Shown: positions 9,957-64,000 of the stretch, piece after piece
How the letters are laid out: each line of letters opens with the position of its first letter
Position numbering within the stretch: position 1 is the stretch's first letter
Assembly (NCBI RefSeq): GCF_027409185.1
Contig: NC_084478.1
Span: 85,109,624-85,173,623, forward strand
Reading direction: 5' to 3'
DNA length: 64,000 nucleotides
Source: Cynocephalus volans
Lineage: Eukaryota > Chordata > Mammalia > Dermoptera > Cynocephalidae
Notes under the pieces: model-generated
The model's input: only the letters and a program-made list of their open reading frames with translations
Told to the model about the DNA's origin: nothing
Database searches by the model: none
Translations under genes and position numbers: made by a program

Positions 9957-10828
9957 CCCCTGCCCACAGATGACAGGAGTGCATGGGACCTCAGGAGCAA
10001 AGTGCAGCCACCACCACTGCCATAGACACTGCTGCTATGCAGGTGGCCTGCCAACCTCTCAACTGCATTGACACAAGGACGGTCACCAGCAGAGTCTGGG
10101 GAAAGAGAAGAGCAAGTGCAGACCTGTGACCCAGTGGCCTAACCCACAGGTGGAATCACTGCCACATATGGCAGCAAAACACCTGGGGGTGGGAGGTATA
10201 AGTGCAGCCCATGCAACTGCCTTGATCAGGGAGAGTCACATGCAGAACCCCACAAGAGTGCAGAAACCCGGTATATCCAAACAGAGTAAGGAAGAAAAAT
10301 ACCAGGTACCACCAACCCATCCCCCAACTGGGGAAAGCAAGGACCCAGGAGAAGCCTCTGCCTGTAGGAAGGAAGAAAGAAAAACCCTGCTCAGGGTCAC
10401 CCAATCAAACTGAGGAGCTCTAGTATAATCCAGTTCACTCATCAGGGTAACAGGGTGCAAGCTGGGGTGTAAACAAGCCTACCAAGGGGCCAAAGAGTGA
10501 CAGGGCACCCAGGTGCTTGTCCCAAGAAATTGAGAGCTCACTCACATACTCAATGAACCAACACAGTGTCACCAACTTTGCCAAGGAATCTCTCAGTGCC
10601 CCAGGGACTATGCCATGGAAGCAATCACACAGCAGCTCCAACACCGAATATGCCTAAAGTACTCACACAGAGACTACACTACTGTGTCCACCAGGAACTA
10701 ATACAAAAACATGGTACACAATGGTCAACGTAAAACACATTTACAGGAGACAGTCTCTCTCCTCAAAGCTGACTCCGGGGTAATAGAAGAAGCAATTGCT
10801 CTATCAGATGACCAGTATCAATGTAGAG
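9957..10828 (+). promoter_or_regulatory. L1 5' UTR of the L1 at 9957-16921
   Basis: A relatively GC-rich stretch of about 870 bp directly upstream of recognisable ORF1 sequence. Its length and position fit an L1 5' UTR with internal RNA polymerase II promoter. It is not similar by eye to the opening of the composite elements or to the shorter 5' UTR at 52960. No specific promoter site was identified. Confidence 0.6.
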
Positions 10829-11650
10829 ATACTAGAAATACAAAAAAAAGAAAATATGACACCAGTAAAGGATGTAATAATACTTAGGTACCAGAACACA
10901 TAGAGCAGAAAACCCTTGAAGTGACTGAAAAAGAATTCTGAGCAACAATCTCAAGGAAAAACAATGAAATACAAGAAGACTCAGTTAGGCAACACAAAAA
11001 AAATGAGAAAAAGTGCCCAGGATATGAAGGAGGAAATTTATAAAGAGATCAATATCTTAAAAACGAATGTAGCAAAACTCTTGAAACTGAAGGATTCGTT
11101 CAATGAAATCATAATTTAAAAAATAAAAAAATAAAAAAACAAGAGCTTAAGCACCAAGTTAGAGCAAGCAGAAGAAATAAATCCAGACCTTGAAGATTGT
11201 CTTTTCAAAATAACCTAGGTGGACAAAAAAAGGGGGGGGGGAGAAAAATAACGAAAAAAATATAAGAGAGCTAGCAGACCACCATTGGATGGAGAAGAGG
11301 AAGGAAAAGGCATAGAAAACCTATTCAATGAAATCAGAGAGGAAAACTTCTAAGGTATGGGGAGAGATATCAACCTTCAGATCCAGAAGGCTCAAAGATG
11401 TCCAAACAGATTCAACCCAAAAAGGTCCTCTCCAACACACATTACAGTCAAATTGAAAAGGCTCAAAGACAAAGAGAGAATCTTAAAAACAGCAAGAGAA
11501 AAGCATCAAGTCACCTATAAGGGAGTCACCATTAGATTAATAGCAGACTTCTCAACAGAAACACTTCAGGCCAGAAGATAACGGGATGATATATTCAAAA
11601 TCCTAAAAGAAAAATAACACCAGCCAAGAATACCATACCCATCAAGTCTA
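10829..11650 (+). pseudogene. L1 ORF1 (RNA-binding coiled-coil protein), broken
   Basis: ORF1p binds L1 RNA as a trimer. The N-terminal text parallels that of the L1 at 53150 and 58941. Next comes a coiled-coil region (about 11000-11210), then the RRM/C-terminal domain. The clearest piece is 11357-11581, with 'ITVKLKRLKDKERILKTARE', the conserved C-terminal block. Damage includes a stop in the N-terminal part (TGA near 10940), an A-run near 11120 and a 10-base G run near 11233 that breaks the frame. Not functional. Confidence 0.8.
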
Positions 11651-11969
11651 TCCTTCAGAAGTGAGGAAGATGTCATGTATTCCCCAGACAAACAAAAACT
11701 GTGGGAGTTCACCACCACATACCAGCCCTGAAAGAAACCCTCAAGGGAATCCTGCATCTAGAATCTGAAAAACAATAATAACTACCATGAATACACAAGA
11801 AAGACAGAAACAAGAAAGAATAAAATACACTGGTAGAACCAAAATGCAAATGAGAAGGAGAAAGAAACTATATCTTACCACCTCAAAAAACAGCAAACAC
11901 CAAAGTCGAACAATAAAAGAGGAAGTAAGGAACAAAAGATATTTAAAACATCAAAATAAAAATCATAAA

Positions 11970-12602: not shown

Positions 12603-12801
12603 TTTTTTTTTTAATTTTATTGAATCAAAATTGATGATACATACTTTTGGGGTTTGACATTGAGATATGTTGATCAAATCAATATTACTAGAATATATAT
12701 TGTTACAAACCATACTTATTCTTTATGCCCCTTGTCTAATCTCTCCCCTCTCCCCACTCTAATCACCCTAGACTTCTTCTCTCCTTCTGAAAGAGTAATG
12801 G

Positions 12802-12880
12802 TTACTCTGTTAATTTGTTGCCTAGATGAACTGTCCAATGCTGAGAGGTGTGGTCAGGTCCCCCACTATTATCATAGAGC
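12802..12880 (-). other. L1 ORF2 endonuclease scrap inside copy A
   Basis: The minus strand contains 'CAGCATTGGACAGTTCATCT' followed by 'AGGCAACAAATTAACAGAG'. This is the same segment as 60490-60545 in the large L1 (endonuclease domain). Immediately downstream the text jumps to L1 3' UTR, so the element carries a deleted L1 body. Confidence 0.75.
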
Positions 12881-13110
12881 AGATGCTTCTTCTGTCACTC
12901 TGAAATGGGCTTTATGGAGAGAGACATCCTCCTCTTTTCTTTATTTTTGCTGATGACTCTCCTTGTGTCAATGCACTCCAGTGGCTGGCGGACCATCTGC
13001 GTGGTGGTTGTGGCATCTAGCTGCTTTTGCAGCAGCCATGATTATGGTGGCAGCTGTGGTGGGCCACCCATATGAAGGTGATGTTTTTGGCATGCTCCTT
13101 GGTCCTGGCA

Positions 13111-13515
13111 GTGTACCTGGTTGTGGGGATTGTCTGGTCCCCAGCTGCATGCCTCAGGTCCCCAGGCAGGCCCCGAGGCACTGGCACAGTGTGCCTGGTT
13201 GTGGGAGGGGGTCCAGCCCACTTCTCCATGCCTCAGTTCCCTGGGCAGACCCCGAAGCACTGGCATGGTGTACCTGGTTGTGGGAGAGGGGTCCAGTCCA
13301 CTTCTCCATGACCCAGGTTACTGGGCAGTCCCCAAAACACTGGTGTGGTGTGCCTGGTTATGGGAGGTGGGTCTGGTCCCCGACTCCATACCTCAGGTCC
13401 CTGGGCAGGCCCCAAAGTGCTGGCGTGGTGTGCCTGGTTGGCAGAGGGGGGTCTAGTCCCCTTCTCCATGCCTTATGTCCCCTAGTGGGCCACAAGACAC
13501 AGGTGGTGTACCTGG
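13111..13515 (-). repeat. VNTR of composite copy A, about 5 units of 78-80 bp
   Basis: On the plus strand the unit contains 'GTGTGCCTGGTTGTGGGAGG'-type text. Its anchor recurs at 13111, 13189, 13268, 13348, 13428 and 13506, spacings 78-80 bp. The units differ by several substitutions. The open frames across this stretch are a by-product of a GC-rich tandem repeat with few stops. Confidence 0.85.
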
Positions 13516-14346
13516 GCCAGAACTAATTTTTTGTTCTTTGCTTACTTCTTAAATGGTGGAACTTCCTGTGGGAACCAGTATTTGAGCTGTGTGGTTGAGC
13601 TAAATTGCTGTTTCTCTAGGGAAGGCTTTTTGTGCAGCTCATGGTTTAATGGTTGATCTTATAGGTACTTGCGGCTCTCAAAAGACCCAATGCAGCTGGG
13701 TTGTGCAGAAACTCTAATCTGGGCCTGAGTTTTTTAATCTAACTGCACCCCATGCAATTCTGCATTCCCAACAGGTCTCCTCTGAGTGGTCCTGCACTGT
13801 TTAGGGTGCAGATTGGCTGTCCTTGCTGTGGCCCAGTGTTCCCCAGGTGGGCCCATCTCCCCCACCACCTTTGCTCCAAACACTTCCCATGGGATGGGCC
13901 CTGCACTGGTCTCTTGAAATGACTCACCAGCCTCTGAATGGCTCCCTTTTTTCAATTGTTGTGGCTCCTCACCCCTATGTGGGTCCACAGGAACCCTATT
14001 AGTGGTCTTGCTGTCCTGGGAGCCACCAAGTATCTCTTCTTGCCTGCCTCCTCCAAGTAACTCCATCTGAAGGGTACAGTTGTGGCTTCTGCCAGCTCCT
14101 TCTCCATGTGCTCAGCAGCTGGAGCCTTAAAGTGGCTATGGCCCAAAATGCTCAGAGCAGTTTTTTCTTTCTCTCATTGTGGTTTCTCCTGCCTTCATAA
14201 ACTCCGTAGGTCTCTCCTCCTCTTCCCCTGAGTTCCAACGGCCCAAGCTTGGCTGATATTGCATTTTCATATTTATAAATTGGTTGATTTGTGGGAGAGA
14301 GTAACGTTGAGGACCATCTATTCCACCATCTTGACCAGAGCTCCTC

Positions 14347-16921: not shown

Positions 16922-18395
16922 AGGGCTTCCAGTCAATATGGTATAACAGACAGTTCCCAGTCACTCTCTTCCACAAATCATTAATTTACACCTATAAAAA
17001 AGCAATGACAGCCAAACTGGGAGTGCTAGAGTTCAGGGGAGGAGGAAGAGAGACATACAGCGTTCACGAAGGCAGGAGAAGCCACAATAAGAGAAAGAAA
17101 GGATTGCTCCCACCATTTTGAGCCCTGAGCCACTTCAGAGTTGGAGCTAGTGAGCTCATGGAGCAAGAGCTGGCAAAAGCCACAGCTCTGCACTTTGTAT
17201 GAACTTGCTTGGAGGTGGCAGGGGAGAAAACGGCCTTGATGGCCCCCCAGGCCAGCAAGACCACTAACAGTGTTCCTATGGAGCCTCACAGGAGTAAGGA
17301 ACCACAAACAAGTAAAAACAGGAGCCACTCAGAGGCTGGTGAGTCATCACAAAGGACCAGCACATGACTGTCTCATGGGAAGTGTTTGGAGTGTGGGCAG
17401 TAGGGGAGATGGACCCACCAGGGGAACATAGGGGCACAGCATGGACAGCTGATCTGCCCTCCAGTCAGCACAGGACCACTCAGTGGAGACTGGTCAGGAT
17501 TATAGAACTGCAGGGGGTGGAGTTTTCTGAAAAGACTCAGGCCCAGACCAGAGTTTCCACACAACCCAGGTATACCAGACCTCACAAGACCTGGAAGTAC
17601 ATACAAGGTCAACAGTTAAAATCTTAGCTGCACAAAAAGCCTTCCCCAGAGAATCAGCAGTAAAGCAGAAATTTAGCTCAACTACAGGGCTCAGGTGTTG
17701 GGCCCCACAGCACGTTCCCCAATTTTAGAAATAAATAAATGAAAACAAATTAATTCTAGTGCAGAGTTTAAGTGGTGAGAATAGCAAATAATCCAACACA
17801 GATCTGAAAGAAAAACCCAGATAAGATACAAAGTTCTTATATTAACCAATAAAAGTCTAATATCACCAAAGAACACCTATAAAACCTAGAAGGACCAGAA
17901 GCCCCCCAGGCTCCTAAGCTGGGATGGGGGGAGGGCTGAGGGCCTCAGCCATGCCCCCTGATGTCCACATCCAGCCCAATGATGACCACCAGGCCACTGC
18001 TGGAAGTGCCCTGGGCTCCCAAGCTGGGTCGGGTGGGGCCTAGGGCCTCAGTCATGTTCCCTTGACATCTGCATCCAGCCCAGTGATGACCACAGAGCTG
18101 CCAGAGGAAGCACCCTGGGCTCCCAGAGTGGAGACAGGCCAATGGCCTCAGCCGTGACCCCCTGAAGTCCACATCCAGCCCAGCCATGACTGAGTCACCA
18201 CCAGAAGCCTTCTGGGCTCCCCTACCAGAATGAGGGGGGTGCTACAGGCCTTGATGACACACACCCCTCCTTTCTCCTCCTCCTACCTTATCCCTCTCTC
18301 TTTTCCCCTCTTCCCTACCCCCCAACTGCTCCACAACAACATCTTAGATATAAAAATAATAATAATAATTAATTAATTAATTTTTTAAAAAGAAA
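16922..18395 (+). mobile_element. Composite SVA-like retroelement, copy B
   Basis: Starts with 'GGGCTTCCAGTCAATATGG', aligning with the start of copy D ('AGGCTTCTGGTCAAGATGG'). The shared 5' half runs to about 17900. Three VNTR units of about 100-104 bp follow (17905-18230), then a pyrimidine-rich block (18266-18340), 'CCAACTGCTCCACAACAACA', and an ATAAT/AATT-rich tail. It has diverged more than copy D. No clear target-site duplication was found. The left flank is late L1 ORF2 and the right flank is an older L1 endonuclease region, so a deletion or secondary rearrangement at the right edge is likely. Confidence 0.75.
17905..18230 (+). repeat. VNTR of composite copy B, 3 units of about 100-104 bp
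   Basis: The anchor 'ATCCAGCCCA' recurs at 17969, 18073 and 18173. Units begin with 'GGGCTCC' and contain 'GGCCTCAGCCATG'-type text. The same unit type appears in copies C and D. Confidence 0.8.
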
Positions 18396-29287: not shown

Positions 29288-29867
29288 GAAAAAAATAAAT
29301 AAAATGGGCAAAGGACTTGAATACCCATTTCTCAAAAAAAAGAGATACAAATGACTGAGAAGCACATGAAAAGATGCTCAACATCATTGGTCATTGGGGA
29401 GATGTAAATCAAAACAAAAATGAAATACCACTTTGCACCTACTGGGATGGCTATAATAAAAATAAATAAATAAAACAAAAGAACAAGTGTGGGTGAAAAT
29501 GTGGAGAAATTGGAACTCTTATACATTTATGATGGGAATGTAAAATGGTATAGCTGCTTTGGAAAAGAGTTTGGAGGTTTCTCAAAAAGCTAAATATATA
29601 ATTACCATATGATACCACAATTCCACGTCTAAGTATATAGGAATTCAAAGAGATACTTGTACACCACTGTTCATTGCAACATTAGTCACTGTAGCCAAAA
29701 GGTGGAAACAGCCCAAGTGTTCATCAACAGATGAACAGATAAACAACATTTCATATATACATCCAGTGGAATATTTTTCAGCCATAAAGGAATGAAATTC
29801 TGATATGCACTACAACATGGATAAACATTGAAAACGTTATGCTAAATGGAATAAGCCAGACAGCTGT
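29288..29867 (+). mobile_element. Old L1, piece 5 of 5 (end of ORF2)
   Basis: Resumes at the same L1 position where piece 4 stopped ('AAAATGGGCAAAGGACTTGA'). It runs to near the ORF2 end, where composite copy C begins. Confidence 0.75.
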
Positions 29868-30540
29868 ACAAAAAGCCTTCCCCAGGGAATCAGCAGCAAA
29901 GCAGCAATTTACCTCAGCCACAGAGCTCAAGAACTGGTCCCCACAGGAAGTTCCCTCTTTTTAGAAGTAAGCAAAGGATTGTTAGTTCCAGTGCAGAGTT
30001 GGAGTACTGGGAACAGCAAATAACCCAATACAGAACTGAAAGAAAAAAAATACCCACAACTAGAGACAAAGTTTGATATTAACTAGTAAAGGTCTCACAT
30101 CACCAAAAAACACCTATAACTCATAGAAGGATGAGAAGTCCTCTGGGCTACTAAGCCAGAGATGGGGGAGGGCTGGGGTCCTCAGCCATGCCCCCTGACA
30201 CCCACAACCAGCCCAGCCACAACCACCAAGCCATAGCAAGAAGGGCCCCAGGTTCCTGAATGGAGGTAGGGGGTCGAGGGCTTTTGCCACACCCCCCTGA
30301 CATCTGCACCCAGCCCAGCCATGACCAAGCCACCACTGGCAGCCCCCTGGTCTCTCCTGTGGGAATGAGGGGGGTGTCACAGGCCTCAATCCTGCCCCTC
30401 CTCCTTCCTCCTTCTTCCATCCCTTTTTCTTCCCCTTTCCCCTCTCCCTCTCCCTCCCAACTGCTCCACAACATCATAGAACGTAAAAAAATAATAATAT
30501 TAATAAATAAATAAATAAAATTTTAAAAAGAAAATTAAAG
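29868..30540 (+). mobile_element. Composite SVA-like retroelement, copy C (5'-truncated)
   Basis: Begins at 'CTGTACAAAAAGCCTTCCCC', matching internal positions about 43595 (minus strand) in copy D and 17628 in copy B. It holds the spacer, about two VNTR units, a pyrimidine-rich block (30390-30460), 'CCAACTGCTCCACAACATCA' and an ATAAT/AAATA tail. 5' truncation is normal for L1-mobilised elements. Confidence 0.8.
30140..30370 (+). repeat. VNTR of composite copy C, about 2 units
   Basis: The anchor 'CCAGCCCA' context recurs at 30206 and 30308, spacing about 102 bp. The units match those of copies B and D. Confidence 0.75.
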
Positions 30541-30727
30541 ATAGAAAATCTTGAAAGAAGTCAGAGGAAAAAACATTTTCCCTATAGAGAAACAAGAATA
30601 AGAATTACACTGGACTTTTTTTCAGAAACCATGCAAGCAAAAAGAGAGTGGAGTAAAACATTTAAAGTGTTGAGAGAGAAAGAAAACACCAACCTCAAAT
30701 TCTCTATCCAGCAAACTTATCCTTCAC
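30541..30727 (+). mobile_element. Old L1 ORF1 C-terminal fragment
   Basis: Text such as 'TTCAGAAACCATGCAAGC' is the L1 ORF1 C-terminal region. It continues after a nested L1 at 31043. Confidence 0.65.
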
Positions 30728-31042
30728 ACACACAGAAAGAGAAATACCATGTCTTCACTCATAATTGGGAGAAAGAAAGAAAATAATACATTGGACTTTC
30801 AGAAGGAGAGAAGAGAGCCACAGTTACTAGAGGATGGAAAGGGGGAGGGAGAGGAGGGCTAGCAAGAAATTGGTTAATGGACACAAGGAATGCATACGTT
30901 CTGTAATGATGAACATGCTAATTATCCTGATTTGATCATCACACATTGTATGCAGGTATTGATAATCAACTCTGTACCCTACAAATATGTTTAATCAATT
31001 ATTTTTCAGTTAAAAGAAAGAAAATAAACTAAAAAAATGTGA
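30728..31042 (+). mobile_element. L1 3' UTR fragment nested in old L1
   Basis: Short 5'-truncated L1: 'AGAAATACCATGTCTTCACT' to the 3' end 'TCAATTATTTTTCAGTTAAA' with an A-rich tail. Confidence 0.8.
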
Positions 31043-42338: not shown

Positions 42339-42353
42339 CCATTGGTGGTTTTG
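42339..42353. repeat. Left target-site duplication of composite copy D
   Basis: 'CCATTGGTGGTTTTG' here is repeated exactly at 44303-44317. Confidence 0.95.
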
Positions 42354-42390
42354 TTTTTTGGGTTTTTTGTTTGTTTGTTTGTTTGTTTTT

Positions 42391-42552
42391 AGATCTGCGA
42401 GAGACTGTTTATTTGGCTAATAATCTAATAATTGTTGAGGTATGGGAAAGATTAACACAGTCTGCGTATTTCAGAAAACTCTGTCTTCACCAGACAAAAA
42501 AGCAGATGGGTTTTCATAAGACAAGTCACATAAAAGGTGCTTTTTGATGTTG
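42391..42552 (-). other. Probable 3'-transduced segment of copy D
   Basis: On the minus strand this follows the element's own A-rich end and ends with AATAAA (42408-42413 on the plus strand as TTTATT) about 18 bp before the terminal A tail. It is absent from the ends of copies B and C. That is the pattern of a 3' transduction by read-through of the element's own polyadenylation site. Confidence 0.7.
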
Positions 42553-42719
42553 GGTTTTTTTGTTGTTTTTTAAAGAAAATGTAATTCTATTAAAGTTATT
42601 TTTTACATTCTAGGATGTTGTTGCAGAGTTGGGAGGGAGGGAGAGAGGGGAAAGGGGAAGGAAATGGGATAGGAGGAGGGGTGTGATTGAGGCCTGTGTC
42701 ACCCCCCCTCATTTCCACA

Positions 42720-43310
42720 GGGCAGACTGGGGGGACCTTCCAGAGGTGACTTGGTCATTGCCAGGCTGGGTGCAGATGTCATGGGGGTGTGGCAAAAGCC
42801 CTCACCCCCACCATCCCAGCTCGGAAACCTGGAGCCCTTCTTGCTACAGCTTGGTGGTTGTTGCTGGGCTGGCTGCATGTGTCATTCGGTGTGGCCAAGG
42901 CCCAAGGCCCCCCACTGCCCTGGATCAGGAGAGCCTGGGCACTTCCTGTGGTGGCTTGGTGGTCGCCACTGGGCTGGCTGCATGTATCAGGGAGGCATGG
43001 ATGAGGCCCAAGGCCCCCCATCACCCTGGCTCAGGAGGCCCGGGGCACTTTCTGTGGCAGCTCAATGGTCATCACTGGGCTGGCTGTGTGTGTCAGAGGG
43101 GCATAACTGAGACTCAAGGCCACCCGCCACCGTGGCTGGGAGAGCCCAGGATGCTCCCCGTGGTGTCTTGGTGGTTGCCGCTGGGCTGGCTGTGAGTGTC
43201 GTGGGGGTGTGGCTGAGGCCCTTGTACCCCACCCTCCTGATTGGTTGCAGGTGTTGAGGGGCATTCCTGAGGCCTCCGACCCTCCCCCCTTTCTGGTGTG
43301 GTAGCCTAGG
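42720..43310 (-). repeat. VNTR of composite copy D, about 5 units of 105-106 bp
   Basis: The plus-strand anchor 'CTGGGCTGGCTG' recurs at about 42864, 42969, 43075 and 43181, and a diverged unit precedes these. GC-rich with CpG sites. Confidence 0.9.
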
Positions 43311-44317
43311 GGACTTCTGGTCCTTCTAGGTGTTAATAGGTGTTCTTTGGTGATGTGAAACCTTTACTAGTAAATATCAAACTTTGTCTCTAGTTGTGGG
43401 TATTTTTTTATTTCTTTCAGTTCTGCATTGGGTTATGTGCTGTTTCAACCACTCCAATTCTGCACTGGGACTAACTTGTTGTCCTTTGCTTACTTCTAAA
43501 AAGAGAGAACTTCCTGTGGGGACCAGTACTTGAGCTCTGTGTTTGAGGTAAATTGCTGCTTTGCTGCTGATTCCCTGGGGAAGGCTTTTTGTACAGCTCA
43601 GGTTTTAATGGTTGACTTTATAGGTACTTCCAGCTCTCGAGAGATCCAGTGCACCTGGGTTGTGTAGAAACTCTGGTCTGGGCCTGAGTCATTTCATCAA
43701 ACTGCACCCCATGCAATTCTGTATTTCTGGCCAGTCCCCTCTGAGTGGTCCTTCACTGATTGAAGTGCAGATCAGCTGTCCTTGCTGTGCCCCAGTGTTC
43801 TCCCGGTGGCCTGTCTCCCCCTCTGCCCATGCTGCAAACACTTCCCATGGGACAGGCTGTGCTCCAGTCCCTTGTGATGACTCACCTGCCTCTGAGTGGC
43901 TCCTTTTTTTCAGTTGTTGTGGCTCTTCGCTCCTATGTGAGTCCACGTGAACCCTATTAGTGGTCTTGCTGGCCTGGGGGCCACCAAGGCCCTCTTCTCC
44001 CCTGCCACCTCCAAACTACTTTATCCAAACGGCACAGCTGTGGCTTTTGCCAGCTCCTGCTCTGTGCACTCAGCAGCTCCAACTTGGACATGGCTGTGGC
44101 TCGAAACCATCAGAGTGGTTTTTTCTTTCTCTCATCATGGCTTCTCCTGCCTTCATGCACTCTGTAGGTCTCTCCTCCTCTTCCCCTGATCTCTAGCAGC
44201 CCCAGCTTGGCTGTCGTTGCTTTTTTATAGTTGTAAATTGGTTGATTTGTGTGAGAGAGTGATGCTGGGGACCATCTCTTCCACCATCTTGACCAGAAGC
44301 CTCCATTGGTGGTTTTG

Positions 44318-51944: not shown

Positions 51945-52881
51945 TTTTTTTTTCCAAATTTTATTTTGTCAATATACAATGTGGTTGATTATTGTGGCCC
52001 ATTACCAAAACCTCCCTCCCTCCTCCCTCTCCCCCCTCCCTCCCAACAATATCCTTTCTGTTTGCTTGTCGTATCAACTTCAAGGAACTGTAATTGTTAT
52101 GTCTTCTTCCCTCCCCCCCCCCCCAGTTTTTTTGTGGATTTATTTATTTTTAGCTCCCACAAATAAGTGAGAACATGTGATATTTCTCTTTCTGTGCCTG
52201 ACTTGTTTCAGTTAATATAATTCTCTCTAGGTCCATCCATGTCATTGCAAATGGCAGTATTTCATTCTTTTTTATAGCAGAGTAGTATTCCATTGTGTAG
52301 ATATACCACATTTTCCGTATTCACTCATCTGATGATGGACATTTGGGCTGGTTCCAACTCTTAGCTATTGTAAAGAGTGCTGCGATGAACATTGGGGAAC
52401 ACGTATACCTTCGACTTGATGATTTCCATTCCTCTGGGTATATTTCCAGCAGTGGGATGGCTGGGTCATATGGTAGATCTATCTACAATTGTTTGAGGAC
52501 CTCCATACCATTTTCCATAGAGTCTGCACCATTTTGCAGTCCCGCCAACAATGTATGAGAGTTCCTTTTTCTCCGCAACCTCGCCAGCATTTATCGTTCA
52601 GTCTTTTGGATTTTAACCATCCTAATTGGGGTGAGATGGTATCTCAGTGTGGTTTTGATTTGCATTTCCTGAATGCTGAGTGATGTTGAGAATTTTTTCT
52701 TATGTCTGTTGACCATTCGTATATCTTCCTTTGAGAAATGCCTATTTAGCTCTTTTGCCCATTTTTTAATTGGGTTGCTTGTTTTTTTCTTGTAAAGTTG
52801 TTTCAGTTCCTTGTATATTCTGGATATTAGTCCTTTGTCAGATGTATGTTTTGCAAATATTTACAGAGTGGGAGAAAATAT
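51945..52881 (-). mobile_element. 5'-truncated L1, antisense, with tiny 5' inversion
   Basis: The A tail appears as a T run at 51945-51955. The G-rich 3' UTR tract appears as C runs (52017-52045 and 52112-52125). Late ORF2 follows to about 52861. The last 20 bp (52862-52881, 'ACAGAGTGGGAGAAAATA') are in the opposite orientation to the rest and come from the adjacent ORF2 position, as expected from twin priming. Perfect 14-bp target-site duplications flank it. Confidence 0.9.
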
Positions 52882-53202: not shown

Positions 53203-53538
53203 TGAGGCATCCGTGCTTACCTGGCAGTGTCCCAACCAGCTGTGGCCATTAGGCACCCATACTTGCCACACTGCACCCAGCTCTGTTATCATACTTACCC
53301 AGCTGCACCTGTGCTCTGCCAGACACTGCTGTAATGGAATTGTCCACCCTCACCCTCTACCCTGCTGTGAAACCTGAAAGAAATGTGCCATAAAAGAAAC
53401 CTCCCTGCTGCATTCAGGGCTCAGCGTTTGTGACAGGAGTCTGCTGAACTGCTGCCGGCATCAGTAAACTCTGCTTCCTGTCTCAAGCCTTAGTGCTTAC
53501 TGCCTCTTCCTGCGAGTTTGCAGTAACACACTGCAATA
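53203..53538 (+). mobile_element. 5' LTR of the class I endogenous provirus
   Basis: About 335 bp, starting 'TGAGGCATCCGTGC', aligned end to end with 58605-58940. It contains a CATAAAAG TATA-like site (about 53389) and a polyadenylation region ('CATCAGTAAACTCTGC', altered from AATAAA). The 4-bp flanks are GTAC on the left and GTAT after the 3' LTR, a target-site duplication with one difference. Confidence 0.85.
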
Positions 53539-57471: not shown

Positions 57472-58236
57472 GGCCTGAGTACTCCTGCAAGAAATCATCC
57501 CACAGTTTGAACTACCTCTAGTCATTGGGTCTGACAATGGACCAGCATTTGTAGCTGAAATTCTTAAACTGATAGCCTGGAATTTAAAAATTACCTGGAA
57601 GCTACACACTGCCTATCGACCCCAAAGTTCAGAAATGGTCAAACACATGAACAGAACTATAAAAACTCATCTCAGAAAATTATGCCAAGAAACCCACCAC
57701 CACTGAACAAAATCCTCCCCATAGTTTTGTTCCAGATCCAATCTACACCCACCAAGTGCACAGGCTTCTCCCCTTTCAAAATCCTGTATGGCAAGCCTCC
57801 CTCTCTCGTCAAGGCTATTCAAGGTGATCTGACAGAGGTCAGACATGTAACTTTGCAACAACTCCTGGCTCTAAGAAAAACCATGCAGGCCATTCACCAG
57901 TGGGCAAGAGAATGGCTCCCACTTAGTCTTCAACCCCCTCTACACCCTTACAAGCCAGGAAGCTCTCTTTGGGTAAAAGAATGGAATGTACATCCCCTCA
58001 AAGCCCTGTGTAGGGGAACTTTTATTGTCTTATTGTCTACCCCAACTGCAGTCAAAGCAGCTGAGGTCACTCCGTGGATACATCACAGCAGACACAAACA
58101 AGCCACAACCTCTTGGGACTGCATTCCTCAAGCCACTTCACCCTGCAAGTTAACTCTCCAGAAAAGAGGACCAAAAACTGCCATGGAGACACTGGATGAC
58201 AACAGCCCTGCTCTAGTCACTCCAAGGGCTGACTAG
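57472..58236 (+). pseudogene. pol: Proviral integrase remnant, N-terminally deleted
   Basis: Begins inside the catalytic core. 'VIGSDNGPAF' holds the second catalytic Asp (codon 57533-57535). Thirty-five residues later the expected Glu position is Lys (57641-57643), so the DD35E triad is broken. The zinc-binding domain and first Asp are absent. The C-terminal domain follows at 57682-58236 ('GFSPFKILYGKPPS', 'VTPWIHHSRHK'). The reverse-transcriptase connection region is joined directly to this piece, so about 1 kb or more has been lost. Confidence 0.85.
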
Positions 58237-58590
58237 TTCACGCATAGTAGAAGCCTGAGGATCGTCAGACAAGAAATTAAAAAACTAACTCATGTCCCAG
58301 TACAAAAGTGGTCAGGATAGAACCCAAAAGGCCTCTTCAGAGGCTGGTTTAACATGTTCAGAGGGCTCAAAACCCTTATTATTATGGGTCTTTTCTTAAT
58401 GGGCACCTATCTCATCCTCCCTTGCTTGCTGCTTCTGGTAATACACACAGTCACATCCTCCCTGGAGGCCATAGTAGAACAAAAAAAAAACATAGCCAAA
58501 ATGTTCTCACTATGACAATACCAGCCCATAGACCAAAAGCCAGCTAAAGGTGATGCTGTTTGACCAGGCCATCTAAGGCCTTGGTCATGC
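58237..58590 (+). pseudogene. env: Proviral env remnant, transmembrane-subunit tail only
   Basis: Only the end of Env remains. At 58326-58480 the frame shows a membrane-proximal segment and a hydrophobic span ('TLIIMGLFLMGTYLILPCLL') followed by a cytoplasmic-tail-like stretch. No surface subunit, fusion peptide or CX6CC region can be found. Stops at 58317 and 58513 are present. Most of env was lost by an internal deletion. Confidence 0.75.
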
Positions 58591-58604
58591 ATCAAAGGGG
58601 GCAA
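58591..58604 (+). other. Polypurine tract of the provirus
   Basis: 'CAAAGGGGGCAA' lies immediately upstream of the 3' LTR start TGAGG, at the expected place for plus-strand priming. Confidence 0.75.
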
Positions 58605-58940
58605 TGAGGCATCCAGCTGTGGCTGTTAGGCTGTTAGATGATACTGTGCCCATCTCTGTTATCGTACTTACCCAGCTGCATCCCCACCCTGCCAGACACT
58701 GCTGTAACACCCCTCCCCTGCCAGACACTGCAGTAATGGAATTTTACACCCTCACCCTCTACCCTGCTGTGAAACCCAGAAGAAATGTGCCATAGAAAAA
58801 ACTACCCTCCTGTGTTTGGGGCTCAGCCTTTGTGACAGTAGTCCACTGAGCCACTGCTGGCATCAATAAACTATGCTTCTTGACTCAAGCCTCGGTGTTT
58901 CCTGCCTCTCCCTGTGAGTTCACACTAACATACTGCAACA
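58605..58940 (+). mobile_element. 3' LTR of the class I endogenous provirus
   Basis: Aligns with 53203-53538 with many substitutions and small indels, so the provirus is old. It has a standard AATAAA (about 58865) in the R region. 'CCTGCCAGACACTGC' is duplicated at 58688 and 58717, a 29-bp tandem duplication not seen in the 5' LTR. Confidence 0.85.
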
Positions 58941-59690
58941 GTATGACACCACCAAAGGAAAATAACAACCCTCAAGTTCTCGATCCTATAGAACAGGAAG
59001 TCCTTGAAATGACTGACAAAGAATTTCCAGCAACAATTCTAAGGAAACTAATGAGATACAAAAGAACTCACTTAGACAACACAACAAAATGAGAAAAAGT
59101 ATACAGTACCTGAAAGAAGAAATGTACAAAGAAATCAATGCCCTGAAGAAGAATGTAGCAGAGCTTGTAGAGCTGAAGGATCCATTCAATGAAACAAAAT
59201 ACACAAAAGAAAGTTTAACCAGCAGGCTAGAACAAGCAGAAGAGAAAATTGTTGACCTTGAAAATGATCTGTTTGAAATAACATAAGTGCTCAAAAAAAA
59301 AAAAAGAATTTTAAAAATTGAAGAAAATCTAAGAGATAACAGTCAACTCTAAGCATTCAAATATACAAATCATGGGTATTCGAGAGGGGGAGGAAAAAGG
59401 AAATGGCATTGAAAACATATTCAATGAAATAATAGAAGAAAAATTCCCAGGTATAGGGAAAGATACAGCTCTTCAGATTCAGGAAGCTCAAAGATCCCCA
59501 AACAGATTGAACCCAAAAAAGTCCTCTCCAAGACATGTTACAGTCAAACTGGCAAAACTCAAAGACAAAGAGAGAATGTTAAAAGCTGCAAGAGAAGCAT
59601 CAAGTCACCTATAAGGGAGGCCCAATTAGACTAACATCAGACTTTTCATCAGAAACCCTGCAAGCCAGAGAAGAATGAGATGATATATTT

Positions 59691-60048
59691 AAGACAGTAG
59701 AAGACAAAAACTGCCAGCCAAGACTGCTTTACCCAATAAGGCTATCCTTCCCAAATGAAGGACAAACAGTATATTTCTCAGACAACATAAAGTGCAAGAG
59801 TTCACTACCACAAGACCAGCCTTACACGAAATTCTCAAGGGAGTACTGGGTCTGGTACCTGCAAAACAACCATCACTACCACAAATACTAAAGAAAGAGC
59901 AAATCCTACCAGTAAAATAAAACTGCTAACAATAAAGAGAAAAAACATTATCTACCATCCCAAGAAACCAACAAACACAGAAGACAAACAGTAAATCAGA
60001 AAGAAAGAAACAAAAGACACTTAAGACATCCAAACAAAAATCAATAAA
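59691..60048 (+). mobile_element. L1 ORF1 tail and inter-ORF region
   Basis: The end of the ORF1 coding text ('TGCTTTACCCAATAAGGCTA') is followed by an A-rich inter-ORF region up to the ORF2 ATG. No separate feature. Confidence 0.75.
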
Positions 60049-63000
60049 ATGCCAGGAGTAAATCAACACCTTTCAATAATAACTCTTAATGTAAAAGGAC
60101 TAAATTCGCCACTCAAAAGACACAGATTGACTGAATAGATTAAAATGATGCACCCAACAATATGCTGCCATCAAGAGACCCACCTCATCTGTAAAGACAC
60201 ACATAGACTAAGAGTAAAAGGATGGAAAAAGATATACCAGGCAAATAGAAATGAAAAATGAGCTGCAGTAGCTATTCTTATATCAGATAAAATAGACTTC
60301 AAGCCAAAATCCATAAAAAGAGATAAAGAAGGCTACTATATAATGATAAGAGGAGTTATCCATCAAGAAGGCATAACAATTATAAATATACATGGACCCA
60401 ACATTGGAGCAGCCGGATTTATAAAGCAAACACTATTAGACCTAAAGAATGAGACTGACACTAATACCATAATAGCAGGAGACCTGAACACCCCACTCTG
60501 AACATTGGACAGATCATCTAGGCAAAAAAATCAGCAGAGAAACACAAGATCTAAACAACATTTCAGACTAATTGGACATGACCGATATCTACAGAGCATT
60601 CCATCCAACAACCTCAGAATGTTCATTCTTCTCATCAGCACATGGAACATTCTCCACGATATATCACATGTTAGGTCTCAAATCAAGTCTCAAGAAATTC
60701 AAAAAAATTGGAACTATTCTGTGTATTTTTTCAGATCACATTAGATTAAAATTAGAAATCAATAATAAATGAAACACTGGAAACTATAAAAATACACAGA
60801 AATCAAACAACATTCTACTTAATGACATACGGGTCCAAGAAGAAATTAAACAGGAAATCAAAAAATTTATCAAAACTAATGAAAATAATGACACATCATA
60901 CCAAAACCTGTGGGATACTGCAAAAGCAGTATTAAGGGGGATACTTATCACATTAAATGTTTATTTCAGAAGAATGGAAAGATGGCAAGTAAACAACCTA
61001 ACACTTCACAATAAAGAACTAGAAAACCAAGAATAATCCAAACCCAAAGTTAGTATATGAAAAGAAATAATTAAGATCAGAGTAGAAATAAATGAAATAG
61101 AGACCCAAAAAATGATACAAAAGATCAATGAAACAAATAGTTGGCTTTTTGAAAAGATAAATAGAATTGACAAACCATCAGCAAGGAAAACTAAAAAGAA
61201 GAGAGAAGACCCAAGTAACAAAAATTACAAGTGAAAAAGGTGATATTACAACTGATACCTCAGAAATACAAGGAATCATTACAGAACAACTATATGCCAA
61301 CCAATTTGAAAATCTGGAGGAAATGGATAAATTTCTGGACATAAACAAACTACCAAGACTGAGCCAAGAAGATATAGAAAATCTGAACAGACCAATAACA
61401 ATAAAAGAGATTGAAGCTGTTATGAGAAGGCTCCCAACAAAGGTCCTCTCAGGACTGGATGGCTGCACTGCAGAATTCTATCAAACCTTCAAAGAGGAAT
61501 TGATACCAATTATCTACAAACTATTCCAAAAAATTGAAACAGAGGCAAATCTCCCAAACTCATTCAATGAAGCAAACATCACCCTGATACCAAAACCAGA
61601 CAAAGACACAACAAAAAAAGAAAACTATAGGCCACTATCTTGATGAATAGATGCAAAAATCCTCAATAAAATATTAGCTAACAGAATACAGTAACACATA
61701 CACAAAATTATATACCATGATCAAGTGGATTCATCCCAGGGATGCAAGGTTGGTTCAACATACACAAATCAATAAATGTGATACACCACATCAACAAAAT
61801 CAAAGACAAAAATCATATCATCATCTCTATAGATGCTGAAAAAGCATTTGACAAAATTCAACATTCATTCATGATAAATACTCTCTATAAGTGGGGTACA
61901 GACAGAAAGTATCTCATCTCAATTAAAGCCATATATTATAAGCCCACTCCCTATATTGTCCTGAATGGGGCAAAGCTGAAGGCTTTTCCCTTAAGAACAG
62001 GAACAGGACAAGGTTGCCCACTCTCAACACTCCTATTCAACACAGTGTTGGAAGTACTAGCCAGAGCAATCAGAGAAGAGAAGGAAATAAAGGGCCTCCT
62101 GATCGGAAAAGATGAAGTCAAACTGTTCCTGTTTGCAGATGATATGATCCTATATATTGAAAAGCCTAAAGCCTCTATTTAAAAAACCTCTTGCAGTTGA
62201 TAAATGATTTCAGCAAAGTTGCAGGATACAAAATCAACACACAAAAATCAGTAGCATTTCTATACTCCAACAGTTAACGTGCAGAAAAAGAAATCAAGAA
62301 AGCTAGCCCATTTACAATAGTCACCAAAAAATAAAATAGTTAGGAAAAAAGTTAACCAAGGATGTGAAAAATCTCTATGACAAGAACTACAAACCACTGT
62401 TGAGAGAAATTAAAGAGGACACAAGAAGATGGAAAGATATCCCATGCTCTTGGATTGGAAGAATTACCATTGAGAAAATGTCCATACTACCCAAAGTCAT
62501 CTACAGATTCAATGCAATCCCCATCAAAATTCCAATGACATTCTTCTCAGAAATGGAAAAAAACCACCCTAACATTCATATGGAATAACAAAAGACCACG
62601 AATAGCCAAACAATCCTGAGCAAAAAAAATAAAGCTGGGGGCATAACACTACCAGACTTTAAACTATTCTACAAAGCTATAGTAACCAAAACAGCATGGT
62701 ACTGGCACAAAAATAGGCACACAGATCAATGGAACAGAACAGAGAATCCAGAAATCAATCCATACACCTAAAGACATATGATCTTTGATAAAGGCACCAA
62801 GTCTACACACTGGAGAAAAGACTGCCTCTTCAGCAAATGGTGCTGGGAAAACGATATTCATATGTAGGAGAAATGAAACTAGACCCATACCTCTCACCAT
62901 ATACCAAAATCAACTCAAAATGGATTAAAGAATTAAATATACATCCTGAAAAAATAAAACTCCTTAAAGAAAACGGGGGAACATTCCAGGAAGTAGGATT

Positions 63001-63871
63001 GAGTACAGACTTCATGAATACGACCCCCAAAGCACAGCCAACTGAAGGAAAAATAAACAAGTGGTATTATATCAAACTAAAAAGCTTCTGTACAGCAATG
63101 AAACAATTAACAGAGTGAAAAGACAACCAACAGAGTGGGAGAAAATATTTGCAAAACATACATCTGACAAAGGATTAATAATCCAGAATATACAAGGAAT
63201 TCAAACAATTTTACAGCCAAAAAACAAGCAACCCAATTAAAAAATAGACAAAGGAGCTGAATAGGCATTTCTCAAAGGAAGATATACAAATGGCCAAAAG
63301 ACACATGCAAAAATGCTCAACATCACTCAGCATTTGGGAGATGCAAATCAAAGCCACTTTGAGATACCATCTCACTCCAGTTAGGATGGCTAAAATCCAA
63401 AAGACTGAGAATGATAAATGCTGGCAAGGCTGCAGAGAAAAAGGAACTTTCATACACTGTTGATGGGACTGCAAAATGGTGCAGCCTCTATGGAAAATGG
63501 TATGGAGGTTCCTCAAACAATTGCAGATAGATCTACCATACGACCCAGCTATCCCACTGTTGGGAATATATCCAGAGGAATGGAAATCATCAAGTCGAAG
63601 GTATACCTGTTCCCCAATGTTCATCGCAGCACTCTTTACAATAGCCAAGAGTTGGAACCAGCCCAAATGTCCATTATCAGATGAGTGGATACGGAAAATG
63701 TGGTACATCTACACAATGGAATACTACTCAGCTATAAAAACGAATGAAATACTGCCATTTGCAACAACATGGATGGACCTTGAGAGAATTATATTAAGTG
63801 AAACAAGTCAGGCACAGAAAGAGAAATACCACGTTCTCACTTATTGGTCGGAGCTACAAATAAATAAATAA
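60049..63871 (+). pseudogene. L1 ORF2 (endonuclease and reverse transcriptase), full span but inactive
   Basis: ORF2p nicks target DNA and reverse-transcribes L1 RNA. The span from ATG 60049 to the stop at 63871 is about 1,275 codons, the normal length. Endonuclease: starts 'MPGVNQHLSIITLNVKGLN', with 'AGDLNTP' near 60478. Reverse transcriptase: '[20 protein letters not shown]' (61831) and an intact FADD at 62132-62143. C-terminal zone: the last frame ends 'SQAQKEKYHVLTYWSELQIN'. Damage includes stops in the endonuclease (TAG near 60136, TGA at about 60257) and frameshifts near 61030, 61640, 61680 and 62180. It is the best-preserved L1 in the window yet cannot move on its own. Confidence 0.9.
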
Positions 63872-64000
63872 ATACACAATTAAACTGGGCGGGGGAGGGA
63901 AGAAGACACAGCAATTACAATTCCTTGAAGTTGATACGACAAGTGAACAGAAAGGACATTGTTGGGAGGGAGGGGGAGGAGGGAGGGGGTTTCGGGGATG
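63872..64000 (+). mobile_element. L1 3' UTR, start only (runs off the window)
   Basis: Begins the 3' UTR with an (AATA)n run and the G-rich tract at 63965-64000 typical of L1 3' UTRs. The end lies outside. Confidence 0.85.

Follow-up and report, generated by a model that had tools for sequence, protein, structure and literature searches.

Results

A composite element bounded by target-site duplications

The 64,000-nucleotide stretch of DNA analysed here (hereafter, the window) contains an element, D, whose sense strand is the minus strand and which, together with its flanking duplications, extends over 42339-44317. The sequence-only reading had described perfect 15-bp target-site duplications around D, and these were recovered as CCATTGGTGGTTTTG at 42339-42353 and 44303-44317; the 15-mer has two plus-strand occurrences in the whole window, both of them bounding D. 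The element opens at 44301 with GGCTTCTGGTCAAGATGGTGGAAGAG (minus strand), an opening presumably of the L1-5′-UTR type in its resemblance to mammalian L1 5′ ends (CAAGATGGCGGAATAG). The order given in that reading, from opening through spacer, 106-bp array and pyrimidine block to A tail, was reproduced by repeat scan, self-comparison and reading, as follows:

44303-44317, minus strand: 5′ target-site duplication (perfect 15-mer)
43282-44301, minus strand: 5′ module of about 1,020 bp, opening GGCTTCTGGTCAAGATGGTGGA, 92% to the module consensus; its border with the array is approximate
42737-43281, minus strand: GC-rich tandem array (VNTR) of about 3-5 degenerate 106-bp units (TRF and self-comparison)
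42572-42736, minus strand: 3′ domain, comprising a degenerate unit end, a pyrimidine-rich block (about 42640-42681) and the family 3′ end
42539-42571, minus strand: A-rich junction of 33 bp (alignment to contig C2 and reading)
42391-42538, minus strand: single-copy tail sequence with AATAAA at 42413-42408 (one other genome match)
42354-42390, minus strand: A tail (AAAAACAAACAAAC...; reading)
42339-42353, minus strand: 3′ target-site duplication (perfect 15-mer)

The tandem array itself stood, while its proposed count of about five units became about 3-5 degenerate ones: TRF reports 3.3 copies of period 106 at 42849-43192, and self-matches in the window self-comparison span about 42737-43237. 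D is also non-coding, as had been proposed, the longest of seven ORFs of at least 80 aa being an antisense one of 188 aa that runs through the array. A scan of D against Rfam gave no match at E<=0.1, in a search that would detect a 7SL-like part only if it were well kept. Where the family consensus has AATAAA, D has AATAGA (42591-42586), and the 33-bp junction downstream of it is probably the A tail of a source element plus a few bases of that source's flank. The earlier description of D as complete is misleading, because the element carries a foreign tail at its end.

Relatives of D in the window

D had been grouped with three further copies into one family. The self-comparison bears out the homology of A, B and C, but they differ from one another and the proposed uniform structure did not hold:

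12603-14344, minus strand: copy A, of the type A sister family (self-comparison, TRF and reading)
16924-18391, plus strand: copy B, type D-like (differs by 16% from the module consensus)
29862-30540, plus strand: copy C, type D-like, without the initial ~705 bp of the module (self-comparison)

Copies B and C, which had been said to follow D's order, are indeed of a D-like type, but B has no clean 3′ end and C lacks the start of the module. L1 ORF2-like sequence lies directly 3′ of copy B, from 18395, and copy C is followed by L1 ORF1-like and L1 3′ UTR-like sequence. Each of these continuations may represent a chimeric insertion, a rearrangement or what is left of a longer ancestor. At 30540-31030, directly after copy C, the ORF1-like part joins the L1 3′ UTR-like part with ORF2 absent, which is perhaps another internally deleted form of L1.

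Copy A and D share the 5′ module over its initial ~830 bp, after which A continues into an 80-bp array (13111-13481), a partly spliced L1 5′ UTR, an ORF2 endonuclease fragment and an L1 3′ UTR. These labels, like that of ORF1, are presumptive and follow from likeness and from position within the L1s of the window. Copy A sits antisense in an L1, between ~14-bp duplications of the form TCAAG(G/C)CTCAATAA. The surrounding L1 (9966-12605 and 14345-16923) is old and nearly complete, with its 5′ UTR starting at 9966 and an ORF1-like part at about 10855-11740, and is interrupted by copy A in its ORF2-like part; a splice donor is frequent in the 5′ UTRs of related L1s.

The type-D family across the genome

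D was used as a query against the 2.81-Gb assembly (130 contigs), and all 40 of the 12,086 first-look candidates that were scored match it, at 75-100% identity; this figure, like the 7,242 given below for type A, is a number of first-look candidates rather than of copies. Positions 42339-42554 of the window (query bases 1-216) are covered by none of the 40 scored copies except D itself. Twenty of the 39 other scored loci, mostly the best-scoring ones, were read with about 8 kb of downstream sequence. Eighteen have the plan of D and are referred to as type D; the remaining two (L026 and L028) are of type A.

All 18 type-D copies contain the pyrimidine block and, behind it, a region like TAGAATGT-A(n) that leads into an A-rich tail, with a common end region of ...CCTCCCAACTGCTCTGCAACAACATCCTAGAATGTAAAAAA... 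or near. By reading, the 3′ end takes the consensus form TTAATAAAATTACATTTTCTTT-A(n) (ATTACATTTTC-like), or nearly so, in 12/18 copies and is an A/T-rich variant in the other six (L011, L012, L013, L021, L025 and L027). AATAAA or ATTAAA occurs within the last 65 bases read in 16 of the 18, although some of these motifs may belong to the tail; in the family consensus, AATAAA lies 14 nt from the A tail. TRF found the array in 8/18 copies, with 1.9 to 7.5 units, and array length varies between copies. Distances from the module consensus range from 6.2 to 10.2% for the 20 copies read, compared to 7.9% for D, 18.0% for A and 16.0% for B, in a comparison where the consensus was built from these same 23 rows and the 20 copies had been picked for their likeness to D. 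D is an old, fossil copy of a large family.

Marks of mobility

The target-site duplications of the 18 type-D copies were compared with those obtained when each copy was paired with the 3′ flanks of the others. In 12 copies the copy's own duplication beats all 17 permuted 3′ flanks (examples are GAACTTC(T/C)AGTGGAGA, AAGAA(C/T)CACTGGGGAGCT and AAAGATCACATACA), and in the other six no duplication rises above the permuted-flank controls. A duplication score of at least 8 was reached by 10/18 own flank pairs versus 9/306 permuted pairs. This scoring was fixed after two earlier framings of the flanks, both of which pointed the same way, but less strongly: in one, at a score of 9, the counts were 7/18 for own and 18/306 for permuted pairs, and the other used random-window controls. 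Additionally, each of two copies (L012 and L020) interrupts an antisense L1, the sequence of which picks up again beyond the copy.

A sister family with a partly spliced L1-derived 3′ half

Type D and type A (L026 and L028) are alike over about 1,040 bp and then diverge. The order is the same in copy A, L026, L028 and a further copy that lies antisense in L013: the module, the 80-bp array, L1 5′ UTR and then a jump of 634 bp, a size measured in the window L1. Beyond the jump follow more 5′ UTR, the ORF2 endonuclease fragment, L1 3′ UTR and an A tail. The first junction corresponds to an L1 splice donor, GGGAAAGAG/GTGAG(C/T) (the slash after the token marks the junction), of which the GAG/GTGAG core is present in 5/8 L1s, and an AG acceptor precedes GAGG or GAGA at this junction in 7/8 L1s. 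The second junction, CTCTAT/GATAATA, is non-canonical. The type-A junctions are spanned in one piece by all 39 other scored genome matches (39/39, of 7,242 candidates), and another complete copy with identical junctions and an apparent duplication CTCTTCTCTC lies on contig C2. As these junctions recur in copy A, in L026, L028 and L013, in the C2 copy and in the 39 matches, type A is a family that has multiplied in one fixed, partly spliced form.

Separation from ordinary L1 5′ UTRs

The alternative named in the sequence-only reading, that full-length L1s simply have this segment as their normal 5′ UTR, did not hold for the copies and the old L1 loci read. When the window L1 at 58942-64000 was used as a probe for L1 downstream of the 20 copies read, none (0/20) passed directly into ORF1 or ORF2, the sole L1 coding piece that directly follows the elements being the short ORF2 piece of type A (L026 and L028). 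Sense-strand L1 matches were found farther downstream, at about 0.25 kb for L028 (65%), at 1.0 kb for L012, amid nested L1s, at 1.8 kb for L023 (the 3′ end of an L1), at 2.1 kb for L024 (an old scrap of the ORF1 region) and at 7.5 kb for L011, with the remaining L1 matches more distant or antisense. The L1 beside L009, traced upstream, is truncated. A second query consisted of the 5′ UTR plus ORF1 from the window L1 that starts at 9966, and for seven of the 39 other loci scored (L034-L040; old L1s with long 5′ UTRs, 75-78% to the query), the module and either array were absent from the 1.5 kb upstream (7/7). Upstream of the query match, these seven loci remain homologous to one another for at most about 170 bp. 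Taken together, the lack of direct passage into an ORF in 20/20 copies and the missing module at 7/7 L1 loci indicate that type D is a discrete non-autonomous family rather than an ordinary L1 5′ UTR.

These results bear on two other accounts of the same sequences. The element could be nothing more than the 5′ UTR of one lineage of full-length L1s; the short copies would then stem from L1 RNAs that were polyadenylated too early, independently for each copy. The apparently L1-like opening of D would fit this account, as would the L1 5′ UTR, ORF2 and 3′ UTR pieces inside type A and the continuation of window copies B and C into L1 sequence. A plain L1 5′ UTR has against it all 20 copies and all seven L1 loci, though the latter are old L1s, and the unspliced form of the type-A pattern had no match genome-wide, which is a weak result. 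We consider this account unlikely. Alternatively, a non-mobile patchwork of old L1 fragments, made by segmental duplication or recombination, would explain why A, B and C adjoin L1 fragments in the window, but common ends, A tails and target duplications recur at loci on many contigs, and this origin is barely conceivable. A chance repeat or segmental patchwork was rejected on the permuted-flank test.

The foreign 3′ tail of D

A 173-base query taken from the tail of D has one match in the genome besides D, at C2:187762035-187762178 (88% over 151 bp). The 6.5 kb around this site (locus L031) contain no match to the type-D 3′ end with up to three mismatches and a single family opening. This opening is that of a type-A copy lying 2.4 kb upstream of the site and in the opposite orientation. 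As this copy (about 180-1640 of L031, minus strand) reads away from the C2 site, it is not the source of D. An AATAAA precedes the A tail in D and is absent at the same place in C2 (CAAATAGTC versus CAAATAAACAGTC). The 33-bp junction matches the sequence upstream of the C2 site weakly, with 78/2000 shuffles and 49/1547 A-matched windows scoring as well; in the alignment, 12/14 bases just upstream match and are followed by an 11-nt gap.

The ~150-bp single-copy end of D is probably a 3′ transduction whose source is missing from the assembly. With so weak a match between the junction and C2, a chimeric retrocopy also has to be considered, in which the L1 reverse transcriptase began on a transcript of the C2 site before moving over to the A tail of the composite's RNA. 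The 6.5 kb around the C2 site contain no type-D element, and the homology breaks at ACCTTTTATG with the 11-nt gap, both as such a switch would leave them; speculatively, antisense transcription through the site might start from the type-A copy at 2.4 kb distance. On the other side, the AATAGA in place of the polyadenylation signal in D would favour read-through, although it may have mutated later, C2 also matches 12/14 bases just upstream of the break, and lost source elements have been reported for human SVA transductions (in the text cited from PMC12593883). We regard template switching as a possible but rather doubtful origin of the tail.

Discussion

Our analysis makes it quite likely that D is a fossil, non-autonomous, L1-mobilised VNTR composite with a probably transduced tail, and that type A is its sister family. 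The parts look L1-derived. According to the mechanism we propose, the 5′ module of ~1 kb, which probably derives from an L1 5′ UTR, would act as an internal Pol II promoter, and the RNA would run through the 106-bp VNTR and the pyrimidine-rich 3′ domain to be polyadenylated after AATAAA, at the end that is seen in the copies. L1 ORF2p would insert this RNA in trans by target-primed reverse transcription, a machinery to which the observed tails and duplications point. Type A would combine the 5′ module of D with another VNTR and with an L1-derived, partly spliced 3′ half. For D itself, a source on contig C2 may have produced a transcript that passed its own signal into a flank with a second AATAAA.

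The known VNTR composites SVA, LAVA, PVA and FVA are described, in the text cited from PMC4432496, as hominoid-specific elements with a CT-hexamer/Alu-like 5′ part, a central VNTR and variant 3′ ends. The elements reported here are, like them, non-autonomous and non-LTR, with a GC-rich central VNTR and target duplications, and they likewise unite a common 5′ part with alternative 3′ domains, represented by types D and A (compare PMC4432496, same text). Transductions are a further likeness to SVA (as given in the cited portion of PMC12593883), that of D being the putative one. The central VNTR varies in copy number in both groups, with units of 106 or 80 bp here, in contrast to 30-50 bp in the hominoid elements, and L1-type A tails and target duplications are likewise in common, being clear in 12/18 type-D copies and not clear in 6/18. 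Mobilisation by L1 in trans in cell assays is another trait of the hominoid composites; for type D, insertion by L1 in trans is proposed. Unlike in the hominoid composites, no CT-hexamer/Alu-like 5′ region was seen, the 5′ consensus opening in an L1-5′-UTR-like manner instead, no HERV-K or L1ME/Alu 3′ domain was recognised by eye, and the genome is probably not that of an ape. The type-D family thus works like the SVA-type composites, yet is not one of them.

Other L1 derivatives offer comparisons for single parts. HAL1 and other internally deleted L1s are, like type A, L1-derived and non-autonomous; HAL1, however, retains ORF1 and has lost ORF2, whereas copy A jumps from the 5′ UTR to an ORF2 fragment, with no ORF1 seen. 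The monomer-type 5′ UTRs of mouse L1s resemble the array in having tandem GC-rich units in the L1 5′ region, but the array of the present elements is internal and is followed by a 3′ end and an A tail rather than by ORF1. The junction of GT-AG type within the L1 5′ UTR of type A is similar to those of human SpIREs, which are generally evolutionary dead ends (as stated in the part of PMC5860796 cited here). In contrast to SpIREs, type A has multiplied with fixed junctions and carries the extra 5′ module and a VNTR; it also differs in lacking ORF1 and most of ORF2 and in its non-canonical second junction.

Literature searches on colugos and on composites outside primates turned up no VNTR composite of colugos, which is weak evidence of novelty, and the words "colugo", "Galeopterus" and "Cynocephalus" are absent from the main text of a study of chimeric L1 insertions (Law and Burns, 2026; PMC13174262). 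Type D and type A may already be present in curated mammalian repeat libraries, classed there as L1 or as "unknown".

On balance, we lean towards the view that VNTR composites arose independently outside the apes, probably in colugos, from one L1-5′-UTR-like module joined to two VNTR/3′ domains, and that these were multiplied by L1 and could carry flanking sequence with them. If true, the SVA body plan would have arisen twice, the second time by convergence. If such a modular scheme, in which the 5′ part is shared and the VNTR and 3′ part are exchanged, did originate separately, it would offer a way to probe what the VNTR is for, and the features on which the two lineages converge are likely to be those that mobilisation by L1 in trans needs. 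Type A would additionally show a partly spliced L1 RNA turned into a successful family, as opposed to the generally dead-end SpIREs of humans.

Other repeats at these loci

Several further repeats were observed in and around the copies. A 5′-truncated L1 (86%) lies within the VNTR of the type-D copy at L014 (1502-3041, element sense), so this L1 insertion is younger than the copy that it interrupts. Just 3′ of the 3′ duplication at L025 is a short element whose ends are inverted copies of each other, GAGGGTACTTCA...GAAGTACCCTC; it is perhaps a DNA transposon of small size and perhaps also present in the 5′ flank of L009. A tRNA-like SINE beside L010 (GGCCAGCCCCGTGGCTCACTCGGGAGAGTGCG) seems akin to the colugo CYN SINE, as does a sequence in L030, a likeness that would point to a colugo genome.

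Within the window, self-comparison identified two L1 3′ ends, 52019-52862 and 63143-63989, that are 90% identical and are the most similar L1 pieces of some length. The segment at 57600-58940 contains what we take to be retroviral-looking coding remains, and a stretch of ~330 bp after them (58610-58938) has a direct partner at 53233-53536 (75%); these two are perhaps LTRs.
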